A stretch of 26,417 bases of DNA from a virus. Location of the stretch: positions 1-26,417 of the IMG/VR virus record IMGVR_UViG_3300036985_001333. One strand, given 5' to 3'. The translations under genes and the position numbers were made by a program. The notes under the pieces were generated by a model. It saw only the letters and a program-made list of their open reading frames with translations, made no database searches and was not told the DNA's origin. Of the stretch, positions 1,715-16,002 are shown piece by piece (position 1 is the stretch's first letter; each line of letters opens with the position of its first letter).

Positions 1715-1798
1715 TTAGGGATCTGTTAGGGTAGGGTCCTGTTAGGGTGTGATATACTGGACTCTAGTGTGAGGAACGAACACTAACTATAGTCTAAC
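1715..1798 (+). repeat. Short repeats flanking promoter A (TTAGGG/GTTAG upstream, CTAAC downstream)
   Basis: TTAGGG occurs at 1715-1720, 1726-1731 and 1742-1747. The last two lie in an exact 10-base direct repeat CTGTTAGGGT (1723-1732 and 1739-1748). Downstream of the promoter, CTAAC occurs at 1783-1787 and 1794-1798 and is the reverse complement of GTTAG. The promoter therefore sits between two upstream GTTAG and two downstream CTAAC copies. They could be operator half-sites, or pair in a read-through transcript. No function is proven. Confidence 0.5.
1750..1777 (+). promoter_or_regulatory. Phage RNA polymerase promoter A
   Basis: A 28-base stretch here is identical to 6277-6304, and its 19-base core TGGACTCTAGTGTGAGGAA recurs with one change at 15969-15987. 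All copies precede gene blocks in a genome encoding its own T7-type polymerase, which is the expected promoter behaviour. Aligning the core with the SP6 promoter (GACACTATAG) puts the start near the G at 1769. That start is an inference. It would drive the block from 1814 through the RNA polymerase gene. Confidence 0.8.
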
Positions 1799-1813: not shown

Positions 1814-2029
1814 ATGGATATTGAGATGAAAGATCTAAACGTAGAAGTGGTTTATACAGACAAGAACGGTCGCGATTTGGCGGAAATGTACAACGTTCGT
1901 GCGTTTACAAACGAGGATGCCAAGAAATTGGTGTGCAATCGATTTCCCAAGGATTGTCCCGAAGCGACAGCGTTCTTTGTTCAGTTTATCTACAACATGG
2001 AAGTTAAAACTCCACTTAATGGAAGTTAA
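1814..2029 (+). CDS. Hypothetical protein, 71 aa
   Basis: First gene after promoter A. I do not recognise it. It is a small soluble-looking protein of 71 residues with mixed charge, no membrane segment and no catalytic motif. It has a good Shine-Dalgarno (AGAGGAT, about 1800-1806) seven to nine bases before the ATG. Its leader carries the two CTAAC copies. Position immediately after an early phage promoter is typical of small host-takeover proteins in T7-like phages, but nothing in the sequence shows a function. Confidence 0.75.
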   Translation: MDIEMKDLNVEVVYTDKNGRDLAEMYNVRAFTNEDAKKLVCNRFPKDCPEATAFFVQFIYNMEVKTPLNGS

Positions 2030-2031
2030 AC

Positions 2032-2148
2032 ATGCATTACAATGAATACATCCTGTGTGCGATTGCGTCAGTTATTTCAGGTGTCATGGGTCTGATTGTT
2101 GGTTACATGGCTGGATTTGATACCGAACCTCGTCGAAGCGACGATTAA
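2032..2148 (+). CDS. Small single-pass membrane protein, 38 aa
   Basis: A 38-codon frame begins two bases after the preceding stop and ends at TAA 2146-2148. The peptide has a short polar N-terminus (MHYNEY), one hydrophobic helix with small residues (about residues 7-28, containing two Met-Gly or Gly-Tyr pairs) and an acidic/basic tail (DTEPRRSDD). That layout fits an inner-membrane miniprotein with its C-terminus probably cytoplasmic. A GGAAG (about 2021-2025) lies seven bases upstream. It fills the space between two other genes exactly, which supports it being real. The function is unknown. Small holin-like or host-modulating peptides are possible. Confidence 0.55.
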   Translation: MHYNEYILCAIASVISGVMGLIVGYMAGFDTEPRRSDD

Positions 2149-2160
2149 CAAGGAATTAAC

Positions 2161-2790
2161 ATGTTTGATTTGATTGACATCTCTCTCCTGTCTAGCGGTC
2201 CCTATTCCATTGGCGATCAGGTATCTGTACCTCTTGTTGCCTATGCATCTCCTGCTGTTCGCATGAATGCAGCTGATATTATTATCAAGTGGGACAACAC
2301 CATCCTTCACTTTGATGGTATCGACAACTCCACTAATACCCTGCCTGCATTGATGTCGTTTCTTCCCGCCCCCAAGGGCTGGTATGGCGATCTCAGTGGA
2401 ATAAATGAGGTCATTCCCCCTGCTGATGGTGATGCTCTCTACTATTGGCTCTCGCCCCTGTGCGGCTGTGCCACCATGGTCGATGGCTTTGATACCATGA
2501 CGGTGTTCAAGTTTACGGTTGTGCAGTCGTTTACTACCACATATGTGAACTTTATCCCAGCATTGACCTATACCTCTTATCCTGAGGAAACTATTGTGTG
2601 GGGTACTAATGTGGGTGGGTGGCCTGTTACTGGCACCACAACCAATGCTACTATTATGGGCAATCAGTTTGATATTGACGGTGACCAGTTTGTAGGGTCG
2701 TCTGATCTTACCATTGTTCTTGCTGACTGGGATAAGTTTGGTACAGTCTATCTGTCTGGTGTTCTTGGGAACTGGGGGCCATGCCAATGA
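2161..2790 (+). CDS. Cohesin-like domain protein with C-terminal dockerin-like segment
   Basis: A 209-residue protein of two parts. Residues about 14-135 look like a cohesin-type beta-sandwich: an opening GDQVSVPLVAY, then an ADIIIKWDNTILHFDGID stretch resembling the Dp..L.f..v pattern of cohesins, then VFKFTVV. Residues 171-182 form a complete EF-hand-type calcium loop of the dockerin I pattern, with Asp at loop positions 1, 3, 5 and 12 (DIDGDQFVGSSD), followed by the helix DLTIVLADW. A second, degenerate half ends in GVLGNWGPC and lacks the Asp loop. There is no signal peptide. The Shine-Dalgarno is AAGGAA (2150-2155). In cellular proteins dockerin binds cohesin, so self- or host-protein binding is possible. 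The similarity to planctomycete secreted proteins is from memory of that style, not a search. Confidence 0.65.
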   Translation: MFDLIDISLLSSGPYSIGDQVSVPLVAYASPAVRMNAADIIIKWDNTILHFDGIDNSTNTLPALMSFLPAPKGWYGDLSGINEVIPPADGDALYYWLSPLCGCATMVDGFDTMTVFKFTVVQSFTTTYVNFIPALTYTSYPEETIVWGTNVGGWPVTGTTTNATIMGNQFDIDGDQFVGSSDLTIVLADWDKFGTVYLSGVLGNWGPCQ

Positions 2791-3005
2791 CAGACGTATT
2801 CTGTATGAAGAAACCCAATTTCAAGGGCGCGGATACCGAACAAGCGATCATCTCTGAGATGATTCGCTGGCTGCATGAGAGGGATTGTGCAGTAGTAGTT
2901 TGGACGAAAGAAGAATTGCGTGGAGTTGACCTATTTGATTTGGAAAGTGGAATGATCGAGTGGGGAAGTGAATCAATTGAAATGAACGTAGAAGAGGAGG
3001 ATTAA
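2787..3005 (+). CDS. Hypothetical acidic protein, 72 aa
   Basis: I do not recognise this gene. The product is small and acidic, ending in a run rich in Glu (NVEEED). It has one amphipathic helix around EQAIISEMIRWLHERD and a short beta-like CAVVVWT segment. The start at 2787 overlaps the previous stop as ATGA. An in-frame ATG at 2781 would add two residues, and both lie after a run of G (2774-2778). Acidic small proteins in this position of T7-like phages are sometimes DNA mimics or host enzyme inhibitors. There is no direct evidence for that here. Confidence 0.65.
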   Translation: MTDVFCMKKPNFKGADTEQAIISEMIRWLHERDCAVVVWTKEELRGVDLFDLESGMIEWGSESIEMNVEEED

Positions 3006-3007
3006 CA

Positions 3008-3283
3008 ATGGACGAATCCTATATGAAGATTCACCCAGATGACTGGCGTCAACTGTTAGGAGATATCGAACAGTTGCGCAAGGAGCGCGACGAACTCCTC
3101 AAACAGCGTTTCGAGGTAGACGAGGTAGAGGAAAATGCACGACGCCGAGTCGAGACAGCGTTTCGCTCAGAGCGCGACGAGGCGAGACGCGAAGTGTGCG
3201 AACTCACACTGCCATGTGAGGGTAGCCAGAAAGGCTATGCAAAAGGTCGGGGCTGGAACTGCTACAAGGAGGAGACACAATGA
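3008..3283 (+). CDS. Hypothetical coiled-coil protein, 91 aa
   Basis: A 91-residue, strongly charged protein. Residues about 12-65 form a long helical, heptad-like stretch of Glu, Arg and Leu (LLGDIEQLRKERDELLKQ and following) that should form a coiled coil. The C-terminus is Gly/Lys-rich with three Cys in the whole protein. The Shine-Dalgarno AGAGGAGG (2993-3000) is near ideal. The gene ends in an ATGA overlap with the next. The function is unknown. Confidence 0.72.
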   Translation: MDESYMKIHPDDWRQLLGDIEQLRKERDELLKQRFEVDEVEENARRRVETAFRSERDEARREVCELTLPCEGSQKGYAKGRGWNCYKEETQ

Positions 3284-3537
3284 AACAAATATCACCAGAC
3301 TACCTTATCGCATACAACAAGCGGGATGAAGCTATGGATAAGTACCGAGTAGCATGTTCTAATCTACCAGAATGCCAAGACTTTAACAATGCCGATAAAA
3401 TGAGAGATGCGCGACTTGCTGTTTATATAGCAGCGCGAGAGGCGTTGCCAGAGTTTGCAGAGGTAATGAGACTTGCAGCTCTCTTAGCAATAGAATATAA
3501 CAAAGGAATTTGGGATAAGGATAAGGAGACACAATGA
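3280..3537 (+). CDS. Hypothetical helical protein, 85 aa
   Basis: An unrecognised 85-residue protein, predicted mostly helical, with alternating Ala/Leu and charged residues (RDARLAVYIAAREALPEFAE) and no membrane segment. It has an AAGGAGG Shine-Dalgarno (3268-3274) and is joined to both neighbours by ATGA overlaps, so it is part of a tightly coupled run of small genes leading to the nuclease and polymerase. Confidence 0.7.
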   Translation: MKQISPDYLIAYNKRDEAMDKYRVACSNLPECQDFNNADKMRDARLAVYIAAREALPEFAEVMRLAALLAIEYNKGIWDKDKETQ

Positions 3538-3908
3538 AACTGCCTCCATGGGATGAACGTCGATTAGCTGTATGGCGCAGCCAGGGCATTAAAGGAATGA
3601 CAAGGGGCTTATTCCATCGACTTTGGATTGCCCAAAAAGGGCTATGTGCTATCTGTCAGGCTGTTCTATACACAGGATCTGCAGGACGGTCGGGCTATAC
3701 CCTAGATCACGACCATGAAACTGGAAAGGCTAGATCACTGCTGTGCCAAGGCTGCAATAAGCACGGAGCCCTTAAAGAAGGGGCTAACATCGACAATTGG
3801 ATCGGAACACAATACCACGATTATGTGCTACGACACAGAAAGAAGGTAACTGATGTGGAAGGATCTATCGGAGACGGAGAAGATCAGCCTGATGGCGGCG
3901 GAGGATGA
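3534..3908 (+). CDS. Recombination endonuclease VII-like (HNH/zinc) nuclease
   Basis: Resembles the T4 gp49 endonuclease VII family, which cuts Holliday junctions and branched DNA. Residues about 28-80 carry the signature: WIAQKGLCAIC with zinc ligands C38 and C41, the DHDH core at 58-61 (His/Asp catalytic centre), GKARSLLCQGCN with zinc ligands C71 and C74, and NKHGALKEG. At 124 residues it is shorter than T4 gp49 (157) and probably lacks the C-terminal dimer domain. The C-terminal tail (GDGEDQPDGGGG) is encoded in DNA that also encodes the RNA polymerase N-terminus in another frame. It likely acts in branch resolution before packaging, alongside RusA. Confidence 0.85.
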   Translation: MKLPPWDERRLAVWRSQGIKGMTRGLFHRLWIAQKGLCAICQAVLYTGSAGRSGYTLDHDHETGKARSLLCQGCNKHGALKEGANIDNWIGTQYHDYVLRHRKKVTDVEGSIGDGEDQPDGGGG

Positions 3909-6279
3909 TCGAGAGTTAAAAGGTATCGATGAAGGTGTTGCTAGATATCATCGATCAGCCGAGAACATGACACTATCCACACCACAGCGTAAGGCTGTAT
4001 TGTTGTTGATAGAGTCTGTTGCTCAGGCTATTAAGAATGATCAGGGTGTAATCACAAAGGGATTAGCCAGCCGAGGTCGCCCCAATACATGGGCTCCCGC
4101 CTATGTAACTATGTGCCCATACAAGTTAGCCTTGATTACACTGCATGTGTGCATTAAATGCGATGAGTCGCAGAAACTTACGGTGCGCGCCAGTGCGCTT
4201 GCAAGCCGAGTCAAACTCGAGCATGAACTTGAAGAAGTAATCCGAATTAATCAAGTGCGGTCTAAGGAAGAAAAAGGCTTTAAAAAGAACTTCTTAGACA
4301 AGATTATTGGAGATGATAAGAAGATCCGCAAGTTATTCAAGAAGATGACTGGTAGGTCGCTACAATGGGATATTACTCAACGACTAGGGCTGGGTACACG
4401 CCTGATCCAAGCCCTAGTATGCAGTAATACTGGGTGGTCTCTAGAGATCGGTTTTAAGGACAGTAAGTCGATCTACTTTATCAAGCAGTCAGATGAACTT
4501 AAAGAGTTACTGAGTGACTGGACATCAACAGCAGAGATTAGAATGCCATCTTTGCATCCTATGTCATGTCCACCCATTCCCTGGGTTCAATCAGGAACTC
4601 AAATCTTAGGTGGGTACAAATTCGGATGCGTTGAATGCATCAAATATGTGGGCGAATCGGCACAGCATAAGCCTAATCTTGACAATCACGACATCTCCTA
4701 TGTTCTGAGTGCAGTTAATGCAATTCAGAATGTCGAGTGGCGGATTGACACCGACACGCTAGCTCTAGCTGAGAGTATTATAAACTGCAACGACTCACGA
4801 TATGATTGCGTTATTCCGTCTGCTAGGCCCAAGCCGTGGTTAGACCCTATTGCAAAGGGATCGACTAAATCAGAGATCAAGGTTTGGAGACAGAAAAAAG
4901 ATACGGCTATTGCTGCATACTATAATTCGATTGGCGTAAGAATTGCCGCGAGTTTTGCCATTGCAGAGGCCCGCAAGTTTAAGACCAGCCCAGTATTCTT
5001 TGTGCACACGATTGACTGGCGAGGTCGTATCTACCCAGCTCCAACTGCATTAAACCCACAGGGTACAGATCTGCAGAAAGCCCTTATCAGGTATAATGAG
5101 CGCATTGCGCTTGGACCTAATGGGCTTCGACAGCTAAAGATTTGGGCGGCTGGCTGCGCTGGTATTGACAAGGTGTCGCTTAATGATCGTGTTAAGTGGT
5201 GGGATGACAATTGGGGTAATGATCCTGATACTGACAACAATATGCGTTGGGTTGAGTACGATGATCCCTTCCTATTCGTACAGGCAGCGCGTGAGATCAG
5301 GAATGCAATAGCAAGTAAAGATCCGCCTACTTTCATGTCTGATCTATCCGTATGCAAAGATGGATCACAGAACGGTTTGCAACACCTTTCTGCTATGGGC
5401 TTAGATGAAATTGGTGGATCGGCTGTTAATCTGCTTAATGGTACAATTCCACTAGACTTGTATGCAAGTGTAGCAGATTTGGTCCTAACATCAGTGATAG
5501 GAGATAGCGAAGCGAGCGTAGCTAGTGGTAAGGTTGTGGATGATTTCGATCAGCCTCTTCCGCCACTTGTTTGGGAAGAAGAGCTACAGCAACGCAAAAA
5601 GAGACGCTCCGTTGTCAAGCGATCCGTACTGGCGTATCCCTACGGAGTAACCAAGTCTGGTATGAGTAATGGTCTGCTAGAGGATGGATTCACGGATGAG
5701 TTGCAGGGGTCTAAGCATAAGAATGCTTGGTATCTGGCAGGCAAGATTGACGAGGCCGTGCGTGATGTAGTTGTGTCAGCGGCCAAGATTATGGATTGGT
5801 TTAGAAGTGTAGCCAACATCCTAGCTGATAGAGAACTTCCAGTAGAATGGATAGCACCATCAGGATTCCCTTGTTGCATGCGCTATCTTGTACAGGAAGA
5901 GAAGCGTATTAGTGTCAACAATGTAAAGTTGTCCATTAGAAGCGACACAAAGAAAATTAGCCCATCCTCCCAGGTACGGGGAGTAGTTGCTAATATTGTG
6001 CATTCATACGATGCAAGCCACCTGGTTGCAACATGCCATCGGATGGTGGAGCAAAAATACACTTCCTTTCACTTCATTCATGATTCGTATGGCTCTCATG
6101 CGGGTCATCTTGATTTTCTAGAATTAGCTCTTAGAGAGGAATTCGTTAAGATTTATAAGAACGATGTGCTTGGTGCCTTTTATGCTAATATAAAAGATAT
6201 TGTAGATATTCCTGAGCCACCAACCAAGGGTGATTTAGACATCGAAAAAGTACTAGAATCGTCGTTCTTCTTCTCCTGA
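3853..6279 (+). CDS. T7-type single-subunit DNA-directed RNA polymerase
   Basis: Transcribes phage genes from the phage-specific promoters A, B and C. All hallmark motifs are present. HTIDWRGRIYP is at 385-395. Motif A has the catalytic Asp D503 in CKDGSQNGLQH. Motif B has K589 and Y597 (RSVVKRSVLAYPYG, equivalent to T7 K631 and Y639). Motif C has D744 in HDSYGSH. At 808 residues it is shorter than T7 gp1 (883), and the C-terminus ends SSFFFS, recalling the aromatic FAFA foot of T7. The start at 3853 has a good AAGG (3844-3847) and overlaps the nuclease gene by 56 bases. An in-frame ATG at 3892 is an alternative. The stop codon TGA is the first triplet of the promoter B repeat. Promoter A lies upstream, so the gene may be autoregulated. 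Confidence 0.97.
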   Translation: MWKDLSETEKISLMAAEDDRELKGIDEGVARYHRSAENMTLSTPQRKAVLLLIESVAQAIKNDQGVITKGLASRGRPNTWAPAYVTMCPYKLALITLHVCIKCDESQKLTVRASALASRVKLEHELEEVIRINQVRSKEEKGFKKNFLDKIIGDDKKIRKLFKKMTGRSLQWDITQRLGLGTRLIQALVCSNTGWSLEIGFKDSKSIYFIKQSDELKELLSDWTSTAEIRMPSLHPMSCPPIPWVQSGTQILGGYKFGCVECIKYVGESAQHKPNLDNHDISYVLSAVNAIQNVEWRIDTDTLALAESIINCNDSRYDCVIPSARPKPWLDPIAKGSTKSEIKVWRQKKDTAIAAYYNSIGVRIAASFAIAEARKFKTSPVFFVHTIDWRGRIYPAPTALNPQGTDLQKALIRYNERIALGPNGLRQLKIWAAGCAGIDKVSLNDRVKWWDDNWGNDPDTDNNMRWVEYDDPFLFVQAAREIRNAIASKDPPTFMSDLSVCKDGSQNGLQHLSAMGLDEIGGSAVNLLNGTIPLDLYASVADLVLTSVIGDSEASVASGKVVDDFDQPLPPLVWEEELQQRKKRRSVVKRSVLAYPYGVTKSGMSNGLLEDGFTDELQGSKHKNAWYLAGKIDEAVRDVVVSAAKIMDWFRSVANILADRELPVEWIAPSGFPCCMRYLVQEEKRISVNNVKLSIRSDTKKISPSSQVRGVVANIVHSYDASHLVATCHRMVEQKYTSFHFIHDSYGSHAGHLDFLELALREEFVKIYKNDVLGAFYANIKDIVDIPEPPTKGDLDIEKVLESSFFFS

Positions 6280-6304
6280 TATACTGGACTCTAGTGTGAG
6301 GAAC
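6277..6304 (+). promoter_or_regulatory. Phage RNA polymerase promoter B
   Basis: An exact 28-base copy of the promoter A element (1750-1777), beginning on the TGA stop of the RNA polymerase gene and ending six bases before the exonuclease ATG. By the SP6-like alignment the start would be near 6296, giving a leader of about 14 bases. The GAGGAAC in the initially transcribed region doubles as the Shine-Dalgarno of the next gene. It should drive the replication block. Confidence 0.82.
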
Positions 6305-13832: not shown

Positions 13833-14461
13833 TCATTATTGCATTTGCAGGACTTGCTCGCGGAGGTAAGACTACAGCCGCCAATGCTGTTCATCGTTTC
13901 TGTAAAGAACATGACATGGACCCCGTAATCTGTTCTTTTGCCGCTCCTATGAAAAAAGCGGCAGAACGACTAGGAATTGATAAAGAAAGAAATCCCACTC
14001 TTTATCGAACAACTCTCCAACGATGGGGTGAAACTCGTCGTGATCCTAAGTTTAGGCCAGGAAGAAGCGGTCCAGACTATTGGGTTAATCGGATTATTCA
14101 AGATCTTTTCAAGATGCAAAAAGATGAAAGAGCGCACCACGCCCTGTTGGATGAGCTAGGACTTCTTGAACATTTTAAAGAAAAGGTCGTCATCTTTGAC
14201 GACATGCGCTATCTAAACGAACTTAACATTATTAAACTGATTGGCGGCACAACCATATTTGTTGATGGTGCTAAACGTCTTACTGACGTTACCGCTTCGT
14301 GGCGACTGCACGAAAGCGAAGAAATGGCCATGCAGTATACGTTTGGAGATATGGAAGATTGCTTTGACTATTACATTACTAATAACGCACCAGAAGTAGT
14401 TTTTAATGCATTCGTGCAGGACATTACACCACTCTGGCTAGACATGGAGATTATGACATGA
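13829..14461 (+). CDS. Deoxynucleoside monophosphate kinase-like P-loop protein
   Basis: A P-loop kinase of 210 residues if started at TTG 13829. A Walker A motif GLARGGKT spans 8-15 right after the first strand (IIIAFAG). Later features fit phage dNMP kinases: an RWGETRRDPKFRPG basic segment and VVIFDDMRYLNEL, the Asp/Arg segment binding the monophosphate. GGAGG (13820-13824) sits four bases before the TTG, and the overlap TTGA with thyX supports it. A TTG at 13805 would extend it by eight residues without a ribosome site. With ThyX, it would push dTMP and other dNMPs toward dNTPs. It is ATGA-coupled to the fibre gene. Confidence 0.8.
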   Translation: MIIIAFAGLARGGKTTAANAVHRFCKEHDMDPVICSFAAPMKKAAERLGIDKERNPTLYRTTLQRWGETRRDPKFRPGRSGPDYWVNRIIQDLFKMQKDERAHHALLDELGLLEHFKEKVVIFDDMRYLNELNIIKLIGGTTIFVDGAKRLTDVTASWRLHESEEMAMQYTFGDMEDCFDYYITNNAPEVVFNAFVQDITPLWLDMEIMT

Positions 14462-15954
14462 TTTTTGATAGAATTCAACAAAGTGCAATTGTACAACTTA
14501 TCAAGAAATATGCATTTCCTCCCGATCAAAGTGTAACCACCGCAAAACTTGGTTATAATATGCGGGAAGCTATCCTTGATAGGACGGTATCTCGGGTCTT
14601 GTATACAGATGGTACCAGTGCTGGTACATGGCATTTTGCAACTGGAGCGGCTGGCGGTTTTTATGAGGGTAGTTATCAGCTTTTACCAGATATGATTGCC
14701 CTAGTTACAGATGTTGATACAACCAGAGGGGTCGCACATTTGCGTGCTGCTCCAGGATCAAATACTGGTACTGGAGGCGTTGGTTTAATTCTTGTGCGTG
14801 ACGGTCCTAAGATATTTCGCGCTAATGTCAAATATGATGGCACAGCAAATGCTGGAACTTGGGCATTTGTTGGTTTTAATTATCAACATACCACTGCAAA
14901 TCAACATATGGTTTGCTTTACATGCAATGGCACCAGTAATTGGTTTGCTACTATAATGGAAGAATTTGTTCTAATTAGTAGTGTCGATACTGGTGTTCCA
15001 GCGTCTGACTGGGCTGATTTGCAGATTCGTATTACAGAAACGGGTGCCGCATTTGAATTAATTGTTACAGATGAATGGGGTAATACCTCAGTAGATACTA
15101 CTTTATACACCCATCTATGGGTTGATGCAGCACTGGATAGTGTTCTATTAACAAATGTAGGTGCTTGTATTAGAAAGCGCGCGGCGGGTAGTGTCCAACA
15201 ACTGTATATTAAACAGATGTTTCTGCAGGATAATAGAGCAGAAGGAACGTATTCCAAACTTGGTCATACGCATTTATTGGATGAAATTACAGATTTTAAA
15301 GAAACAAAGATTTATATTGAAACAGATTGCAACGCTGCGGGTGAGTTTTCAACGTATAGTCTAAGTGGCGGATCTAACGTTTTTACCACAGCTGGTCTTA
15401 CTCATTGTAATGGCCATTGGGGTATTCTTAGGTGTGGAACAGCAGCCTCCGCTAGTTCAGTTGCTGGTATTGGAGCGGGAACTATTACAGATAGTGTTAT
15501 CTTTGGTACATATAAACATGAAACAACCGCAATTGTTTATATTCCTAATCTAAGTAATGCTACCAATCGATTTTATGTTGAACACGGTTTTAGTGACAAT
15601 CGTGGTGGAGTTCCAACAGATGCCGTAATGTTCTCTTATATTGATACTCAAATGGGAGGCAATTGGGCATGTTTGGCTTACAATAATACTGTTTTAACTG
15701 CCAAAGATAGTGGAGTACCTGTTGCAGCTTTAACTTGGTATAAACTTCGCGTAGTGGTCAATGTAAATGGATCATCCGAATTCTATATTAACGGTACTCA
15801 AGTAGCAACTACTACCGACTTTCCAGTTGGATCTGTCGGAACTGGATCGGCACGGGCTACAGCTAACGGCTGTACTATCCGAAAGACCGTAGGAGTCGCC
15901 GCTAGGAACCTAGACATTGACTACTATAATCTACAAATTGGCACCTCTCGTTGA
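14458..15954 (+). CDS. Tail fibre/lectin-like protein with duplicated beta-sandwich domains
   Basis: A 498-residue protein, poor in Cys and Lys and rich in Thr, Gly and Ala, typical of phage fibres or adhesins. Two similar domains (about 45-255 and 285-498) flank a central GHTHLLDEITDF (269-280), a His-x-His motif common in trimeric phage fibres. Matching points of the repeat are DTGVPASDWADLQIRI against DSGVPVAALTWYKLRV, and NVGACIRKRAAGSVQQLYI against TANGCTIRKTVGVAARNLDI. The fold looks like a ConA/LamG-type carbohydrate-binding sandwich. Its place before the late promoter, not after the internal virion genes as in T7, is unusual. It may be a receptor-binding protein; a host or surface-binding role outside the virion cannot be ruled out. 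Confidence 0.65.
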   Translation: MIFDRIQQSAIVQLIKKYAFPPDQSVTTAKLGYNMREAILDRTVSRVLYTDGTSAGTWHFATGAAGGFYEGSYQLLPDMIALVTDVDTTRGVAHLRAAPGSNTGTGGVGLILVRDGPKIFRANVKYDGTANAGTWAFVGFNYQHTTANQHMVCFTCNGTSNWFATIMEEFVLISSVDTGVPASDWADLQIRITETGAAFELIVTDEWGNTSVDTTLYTHLWVDAALDSVLLTNVGACIRKRAAGSVQQLYIKQMFLQDNRAEGTYSKLGHTHLLDEITDFKETKIYIETDCNAAGEFSTYSLSGGSNVFTTAGLTHCNGHWGILRCGTAASASSVAGIGAGTITDSVIFGTYKHETTAIVYIPNLSNATNRFYVEHGFSDNRGGVPTDAVMFSYIDTQMGGNWACLAYNNTVLTAKDSGVPVAALTWYKLRVVVNVNGSSEFYINGTQVATTTDFPVGSVGTGSARATANGCTIRKTVGVAARNLDIDYYNLQIGTSR

Positions 15955-15960
15955 CCCCCC

Positions 15961-15987
15961 CTAATTAGTGGACACTAGTGTGAGGAA
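15961..15987 (+). promoter_or_regulatory. Phage RNA polymerase promoter C (late)
   Basis: TGGACACTAGTGTGAGGAA at 15969-15987 matches 18 of 19 core bases of promoters A and B, with CAC instead of CTC. The eight bases upstream differ, so this is a sequence-divergent class. The core holds a perfect ACACTAGTGT palindrome. By the SP6-like alignment the start is near 15980. It precedes the virion genes and follows a run of seven C. Confidence 0.75.
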
Positions 15988-16002
15988 AGCCAATGTATAC
16001 CA

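Follow-up and report, generated by a model that had tools for sequence, protein, structure and literature searches.

The gene at positions 2161..2790 (+) encodes a 209-aa protein that we identify with high confidence as a phage version of a cohesin-dockerin protein secreted by Phycisphaerae, with regard to both its identity and its origin. Full-length homology demonstrates, at the level of sequence, its common descent with a bacterial family that is encoded beside planctosome-type genes. The gene lies on a 26.4-kb fragment (26,417 nucleotides, hereafter the window) of a T7-like phage, which carries genes for an M28-type peptidase, a T7-type RNA polymerase, a primase-helicase, a DNA polymerase, portal, scaffold, capsid, and tail. 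The T7-type RNA polymerase gene (3853..6279 (+), Pfam RNA_pol E 4e-82) places the gene block in a phage. Direct reading of the open frame at 2161-2790 confirmed the annotated 209-aa protein, with an ATG start and AAGGAA upstream. We consider it a real gene because a protein of the same length and 84% identity is present in another virus record, at a dN/dS of 0.07; further viral records contain relatives as well. The antisense ORF at 2077-2787 (-) lacks conservation in the 84% identical relative and was dismissed as a gene.

The initial annotation proposed a cohesin-like domain, which we assign to residues 1-166 (2161..2658 (+)) on the basis of an AlphaFold2 model, VIA-align, and the Pfam match of the relative L130. 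The model, built from an alignment of ten viral relatives, reached a pLDDT of 77.9 and a pTM of 0.72, with poor quality at residues 67-77 and 86-89; an earlier model from a two-row alignment (pLDDT 33) was discarded. The top PDB matches in Foldseek were cohesins, as were all 50 PDB entries listed by VIA-align (Z 9.8-14.6), the best being 6kgc_A with a Z of 14.6 and an rmsd of 2.2 over 136 residues. The structure search against cohesin and dockerin families that had been suggested as a check thus returned cohesins, and an outcome with no relation to either family was not seen. Matches in a viral structure library were at most 16% identical and mostly without names. Neither Pfam nor PHROGs gave a name to the window protein itself. 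Pfam PF00963 (Cohesin) did not match it, remained under the cut-off for the 84% identical relative (E 0.018), and exceeded the cut-off for L130 (25.6 vs 24.1 bits), one of the ten viral relatives. A phmmer match to an antibody chain (E 0.015) was dismissed as chance.

Residues 167-209 (2659..2787 (+)) form a dockerin-like tail, as indicated by the model helices, one-loop tails in Phycisphaerae, and a Pfam Dockerin_1 match with E 0.004. As annotated, the EF-hand-type calcium loop DIDGDQFVGSSD occupies residues 171-182 (2671..2706 (+), read directly) with Asp at positions 1, 3, 5, and 12; it is followed by DLTIVLADW, and the protein ends in GVLGNWGPCQ. In the model, this loop precedes helices at 180-188 and 190-203 and the terminal GNWGPC. 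The second calcium loop is deleted while the helices remain, and the window protein thus has one loop in place of the two EF-hand-like loops, each with a helix, that define type I dockerins. Shuffled versions of the window protein show the strict pattern DxDxDx6D in 0.7% of cases, so that the loop alone is moderate evidence and the homologues settle the matter. D171, D173, D175, and D182 are retained in the 84% identical relative, while the rest of its tail has diverged. Against PF00404 (Dockerin_1), the window protein scores 12.8 bits, under the cut-off of 22.9, and the relatives L134, L135, L136, and L137 lie over it. Two calcium loops are found in the phage members L130, L131, and L134-L136, and one-loop tails like that of the window in the Phycisphaerae loci L004, L005, and L026. 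Taken together, the relatives over the Pfam Dockerin_1 cut-off and the Phycisphaerae tails of the one-loop type substantiate the dockerin tail. In G003, a Phycisphaera MAG, we observed a one-loop tail with no Pfam cohesin and no Dockerin_1 match at 1e-4, which suggests that such tails may represent a tag type of their own.

The style of the protein had been taken as a hint of Planctomycetes (Phycisphaerae), and both tail loci and full-length homologues bear this out. A scan for the tail alone, run on 84,980 bacterial and archaeal species, each represented by a single genome, yielded 15 loci, of which 14 are titled planctomycetes and 1 a Deltaproteobacteria MAG; these six-frame searches are a sample of species, and taxon names are as in the record titles. 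The scan patterns were shaped by a third alignment row that we wrote in planctomycete style. The choice of patterns is therefore ours; the taxon spread is not built into the scan, since confirmation by tblastn used the window tail. The C-terminal matches were mainly planctomycete tails, with no unrelated folds among them, and the most similar locus (L005, 59% identity) belongs to a 'Phycisphaera' MAG. The Deltaproteobacteria MAG (L016) encodes a protein of repeated planctomycete-style dockerin units, which could reflect transfer or a binning error. The tail scan succeeded where a whole-protein genome scan gave no match. Profile searches within the class, order, and family concerned revealed full-length homologues in 21 of the 181 genomes of one family (E down to 8e-29), and those with complete 5' ends carry a signal-peptide-like hydrophobic leader directly before the starting point of the phage protein.

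The bacterial homologues sit in a conserved cluster beside genes for cohesin-domain proteins, and the clusters include cohesin, LTD, P_proprotein, and TSP3 genes. Near the homologue in L100, a 2,228-aa protein combines a Lamin Tail Domain, proprotein-convertase P-domains, and TSP3 repeats with a cohesin in the same frame. It matches the architecture of the 'anchoring' protein of 2,210 aa in the planctosome hypothesis, which also has a dockerin/HYR/cohesin 'adaptor' and is an in silico proposal rather than a demonstrated complex (PMC6461901). HYR adjoins the homologue in L106. Some of the Phycisphaerae homologues (L037, L041) have the same cohesin-like domain with a PEP-CTERM end in place of the dockerin, a hint that tails of the dockerin type may serve as tags for surface sorting. 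In the window, the gene block of the cohesin gene also holds an M28/M42-like peptidase (338-1252, phrog_4191), conserved in L126, L128, and L122; a link to the planctosome is conceivable, as the latter is thought to degrade peptides. The 181 genomes were also searched for shared DNA and spacers; all matches were short and weak, and the best of them, 35 bases at 89%, lies outside repeat arrays. We take the host to be a member of the Phycisphaerae, an assignment made from the gene family and not from a CRISPR match or culture.

What had appeared to be a single odd gene is indeed present, but it is no lone oddity: it belongs to a phage family that occupies several genomic positions. Relatives with or without a dockerin tail occur in ten other viral records, which are few and all from one collection. 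The closest, UViG 3300036978_000071 (G001), is the 84% identical protein, and its gene lies between primase-helicase and DNA polymerase, as does that of L137. In closer kin of the window phage (L123/L128 and L126), the gene precedes endonuclease VII and RNA polymerase, as in the window, and the proteins consist of the cohesin part only, with no dockerin tail. In L130 and L131, it is placed among clustered tail-fibre genes, with portal on one side of the cluster and scaffold on the other. The core genes of the window and of G001 are 25-44% identical, and the 84% identity of their cohesin proteins despite this distance shows that the gene moved between phages. A 74-aa gene that overlaps the cohesin gene (2781..3005 (+)) was exchanged too, as its 72% identical copy in G001, found by tblastn, lies before the RNA polymerase gene, elsewhere than the cohesin gene.

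The gene is under purifying selection. Between the window and G001, dN is 0.10 and dS 1.39, and constraint is strongest in the cohesin part (residues 24-118, dN/dS 0.014). In a tree that includes 31 bacterial rows, all ten distinct viral proteins group in a single clade (support 100/99); with this sampling, one old capture of the gene is the simplest reading, and later transfers may also have taken place. These data bear directly on the idea that the gene is passive cargo, recently picked up from a host and of no benefit to the phage. Its patchy distribution would suit this idea, as would the result of tblastn, in which none of 50,697 annotated phage records contained a relative; however, the overall dN/dS of 0.07, the single deep and branched viral clade, and the fixed place of the gene in several phages make it very improbable. 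Plasmids gave one insignificant match only (E 3), and none of the defence-system models matched.

In agreement with the initial annotation, the window protein has no signal peptide and begins at the first domain strand. A 38-codon ORF with a hydrophobic stretch was read upstream (2032..2148 (+)); it is in the frame of the cohesin gene, its stop codon lies 4 codons 5' of that gene, and it has no counterpart upstream of the gene of the 84% identical relative. All eight T7-like records begin directly at the cohesin domain without a signal peptide, and in L123/L128 the domain start is a TTG start with a ribosome-binding site. L134 and L135, which are probably larger phages as judged by ribonucleotide reductase and other genes, have clear signal peptides (MKKIMSAMFLLISLLCSSVAFSQ and MKTLMFLLSLFVITNVYGQ, respectively) before the cohesin domain; the leader was kept there and lost in the T7-like phages. 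Both phages also have a gene (L134:3050-3844, L135:7815-8699) for another protein that appears to be exported and may be a beta-barrel; it has no PHROG match. The signal peptides of L134 and L135, together with the place of the bacterial homologue in a surface-complex locus, would fit a cargo product that alters the surface complex of the infected cell, resulting in superinfection exclusion or changed peptide uptake. We regard this as rather unlikely, since leaderless forms such as those of all eight T7-like records would have to reach the envelope by another route, and a lytic T7-like phage has little time for rebuilding the surface.

The absence of a leader could instead point to a decoy inside the cell, the cytoplasm being one of three conceivable sites of action. 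Such a decoy would capture preproteins with dockerin tails or cohesins ahead of their export, or obstruct the route of surface assembly, and thereby keep receptors or other surface proteins from being displayed. The location of the gene ahead of that for RNA polymerase in the window, L123, L126, and L128 would be consistent with such a role. The initial annotation had placed the gene in an early block, and its position holds, but early expression is uncertain because a promoter-like repeat lies upstream. This 28-nt repeat at 1750-1777 (+) precedes the gene block 1814-3908; an identical copy (6277-6304) and a variant copy (15961-15988) likewise lie 5' of gene blocks. Within it, 26 nt (1751..1776) are identical at 26 of 26 bases at 6278-6303, with a variant at 15969 and no occurrence in shuffles. 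By its form and place, the repeat is likely a promoter of the phage's own RNA polymerase. The cohesin gene, 384 bases 3' of the first copy, may thus be transcribed after the polymerase has been made and not only early. The repeat core is also present in the near-identical phage L114; compared to this phage, a putative tail fibre of the window with an SO2946-like C-terminal and a laminin-G-like domain (14458-15954) shows more variation (88%) than the adjacent genes. The calcium level in the cytoplasm is normally low. As dockerins fold with calcium, as the larger phages retain a signal peptide, and in view of the tail-fibre location in L130/L131 and the phage-type candidate promoter, a decoy within the cytoplasm is unlikely.

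We tentatively favour a docking module that would act outside the cytoplasm, as a component of the virion (tail) or free in the lysate, although we rate this mechanism as somewhat short of probable. The cohesin face would bind the many dockerin-tailed proteins of the host cell, and the calcium-dependent tail, in members that have one, would attach to a cohesin belonging to the same complex at the surface; such docking would increase adsorption or keep particles close to new hosts. Several observations argue for docking: the cohesin part is the most constrained and the only part common to all members, the calcium loop is intact where the tail exists and suits an extracellular or lysate setting, and the gene adjoins tail-fibre genes in one phage group (L130/L131). 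In addition, eight host-type genomes contain 33-57 Dockerin_1 matches compared to only 2-7 cohesin matches. On the other hand, the window, G001, and L137 carry the gene away from their structural genes, and two relatives lack the dockerin tail. That the window protein binds a host partner is plausible; a general use of the captured cohesin by Phycisphaerae phages as a receptor-binding or tethering module for dockerin-tailed host proteins is possible, albeit doubtful.

The occurrence of related genes in several quite different phages indicates that phages took over part of the host's surface-assembly kit. The contacts within cohesin-dockerin pairs rank with the strongest noncovalent ones known between proteins. 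A family of phage genes that encodes both partners provides a handle on what planctosome-type complexes do and on host recognition by planctomycete phages, of which very few are known. The gene family can also serve as a host marker that shows which uncultured phages infect Phycisphaerae, and it is a source of compact cohesin and dockerin modules for binding studies. If the tethering reading is true, the protein-assembly code of the host would be the landing code of the phage.

The open literature that we searched contained no earlier report of native phage cohesin-dockerin genes. Among known systems, the closest are the secreted cohesin-like and dockerin proteins of Phycisphaerae, which share full-length homology (E down to 8e-29) and domain order with the phage proteins, and whose dockerin tail often ends in W-G-x-C as well. 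They have signal peptides and two calcium loops, whereas the window protein has no leader and one loop, and the phage proteins form a clade of their own. Cellulosomal cohesins and type I dockerins (6kgc, 1ohz, 2y3n) share the cohesin fold (Z 14.6), and the family dockerin profile matches 2y3n_B (E 2.9e-5); however, identity is ~12%, there is no enzyme or scaffoldin, and the two modules are joined in a single small phage protein. Work by Peer et al., listed among the references of PMC6461901, reportedly deals with noncellulosomal cohesin- and dockerin-like modules and, going by its title, with the three domains of life; such modules likewise stand outside cellulose degradation, whereas the genes described here form a phage family. 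Ig-like domains occur on phage capsids and tails, T4 Hoc being an example. A beta-sandwich that helps the particle to stick near its host would work alike in both cases, although the phage cohesin belongs to another fold family and may have a specific host protein as its partner.
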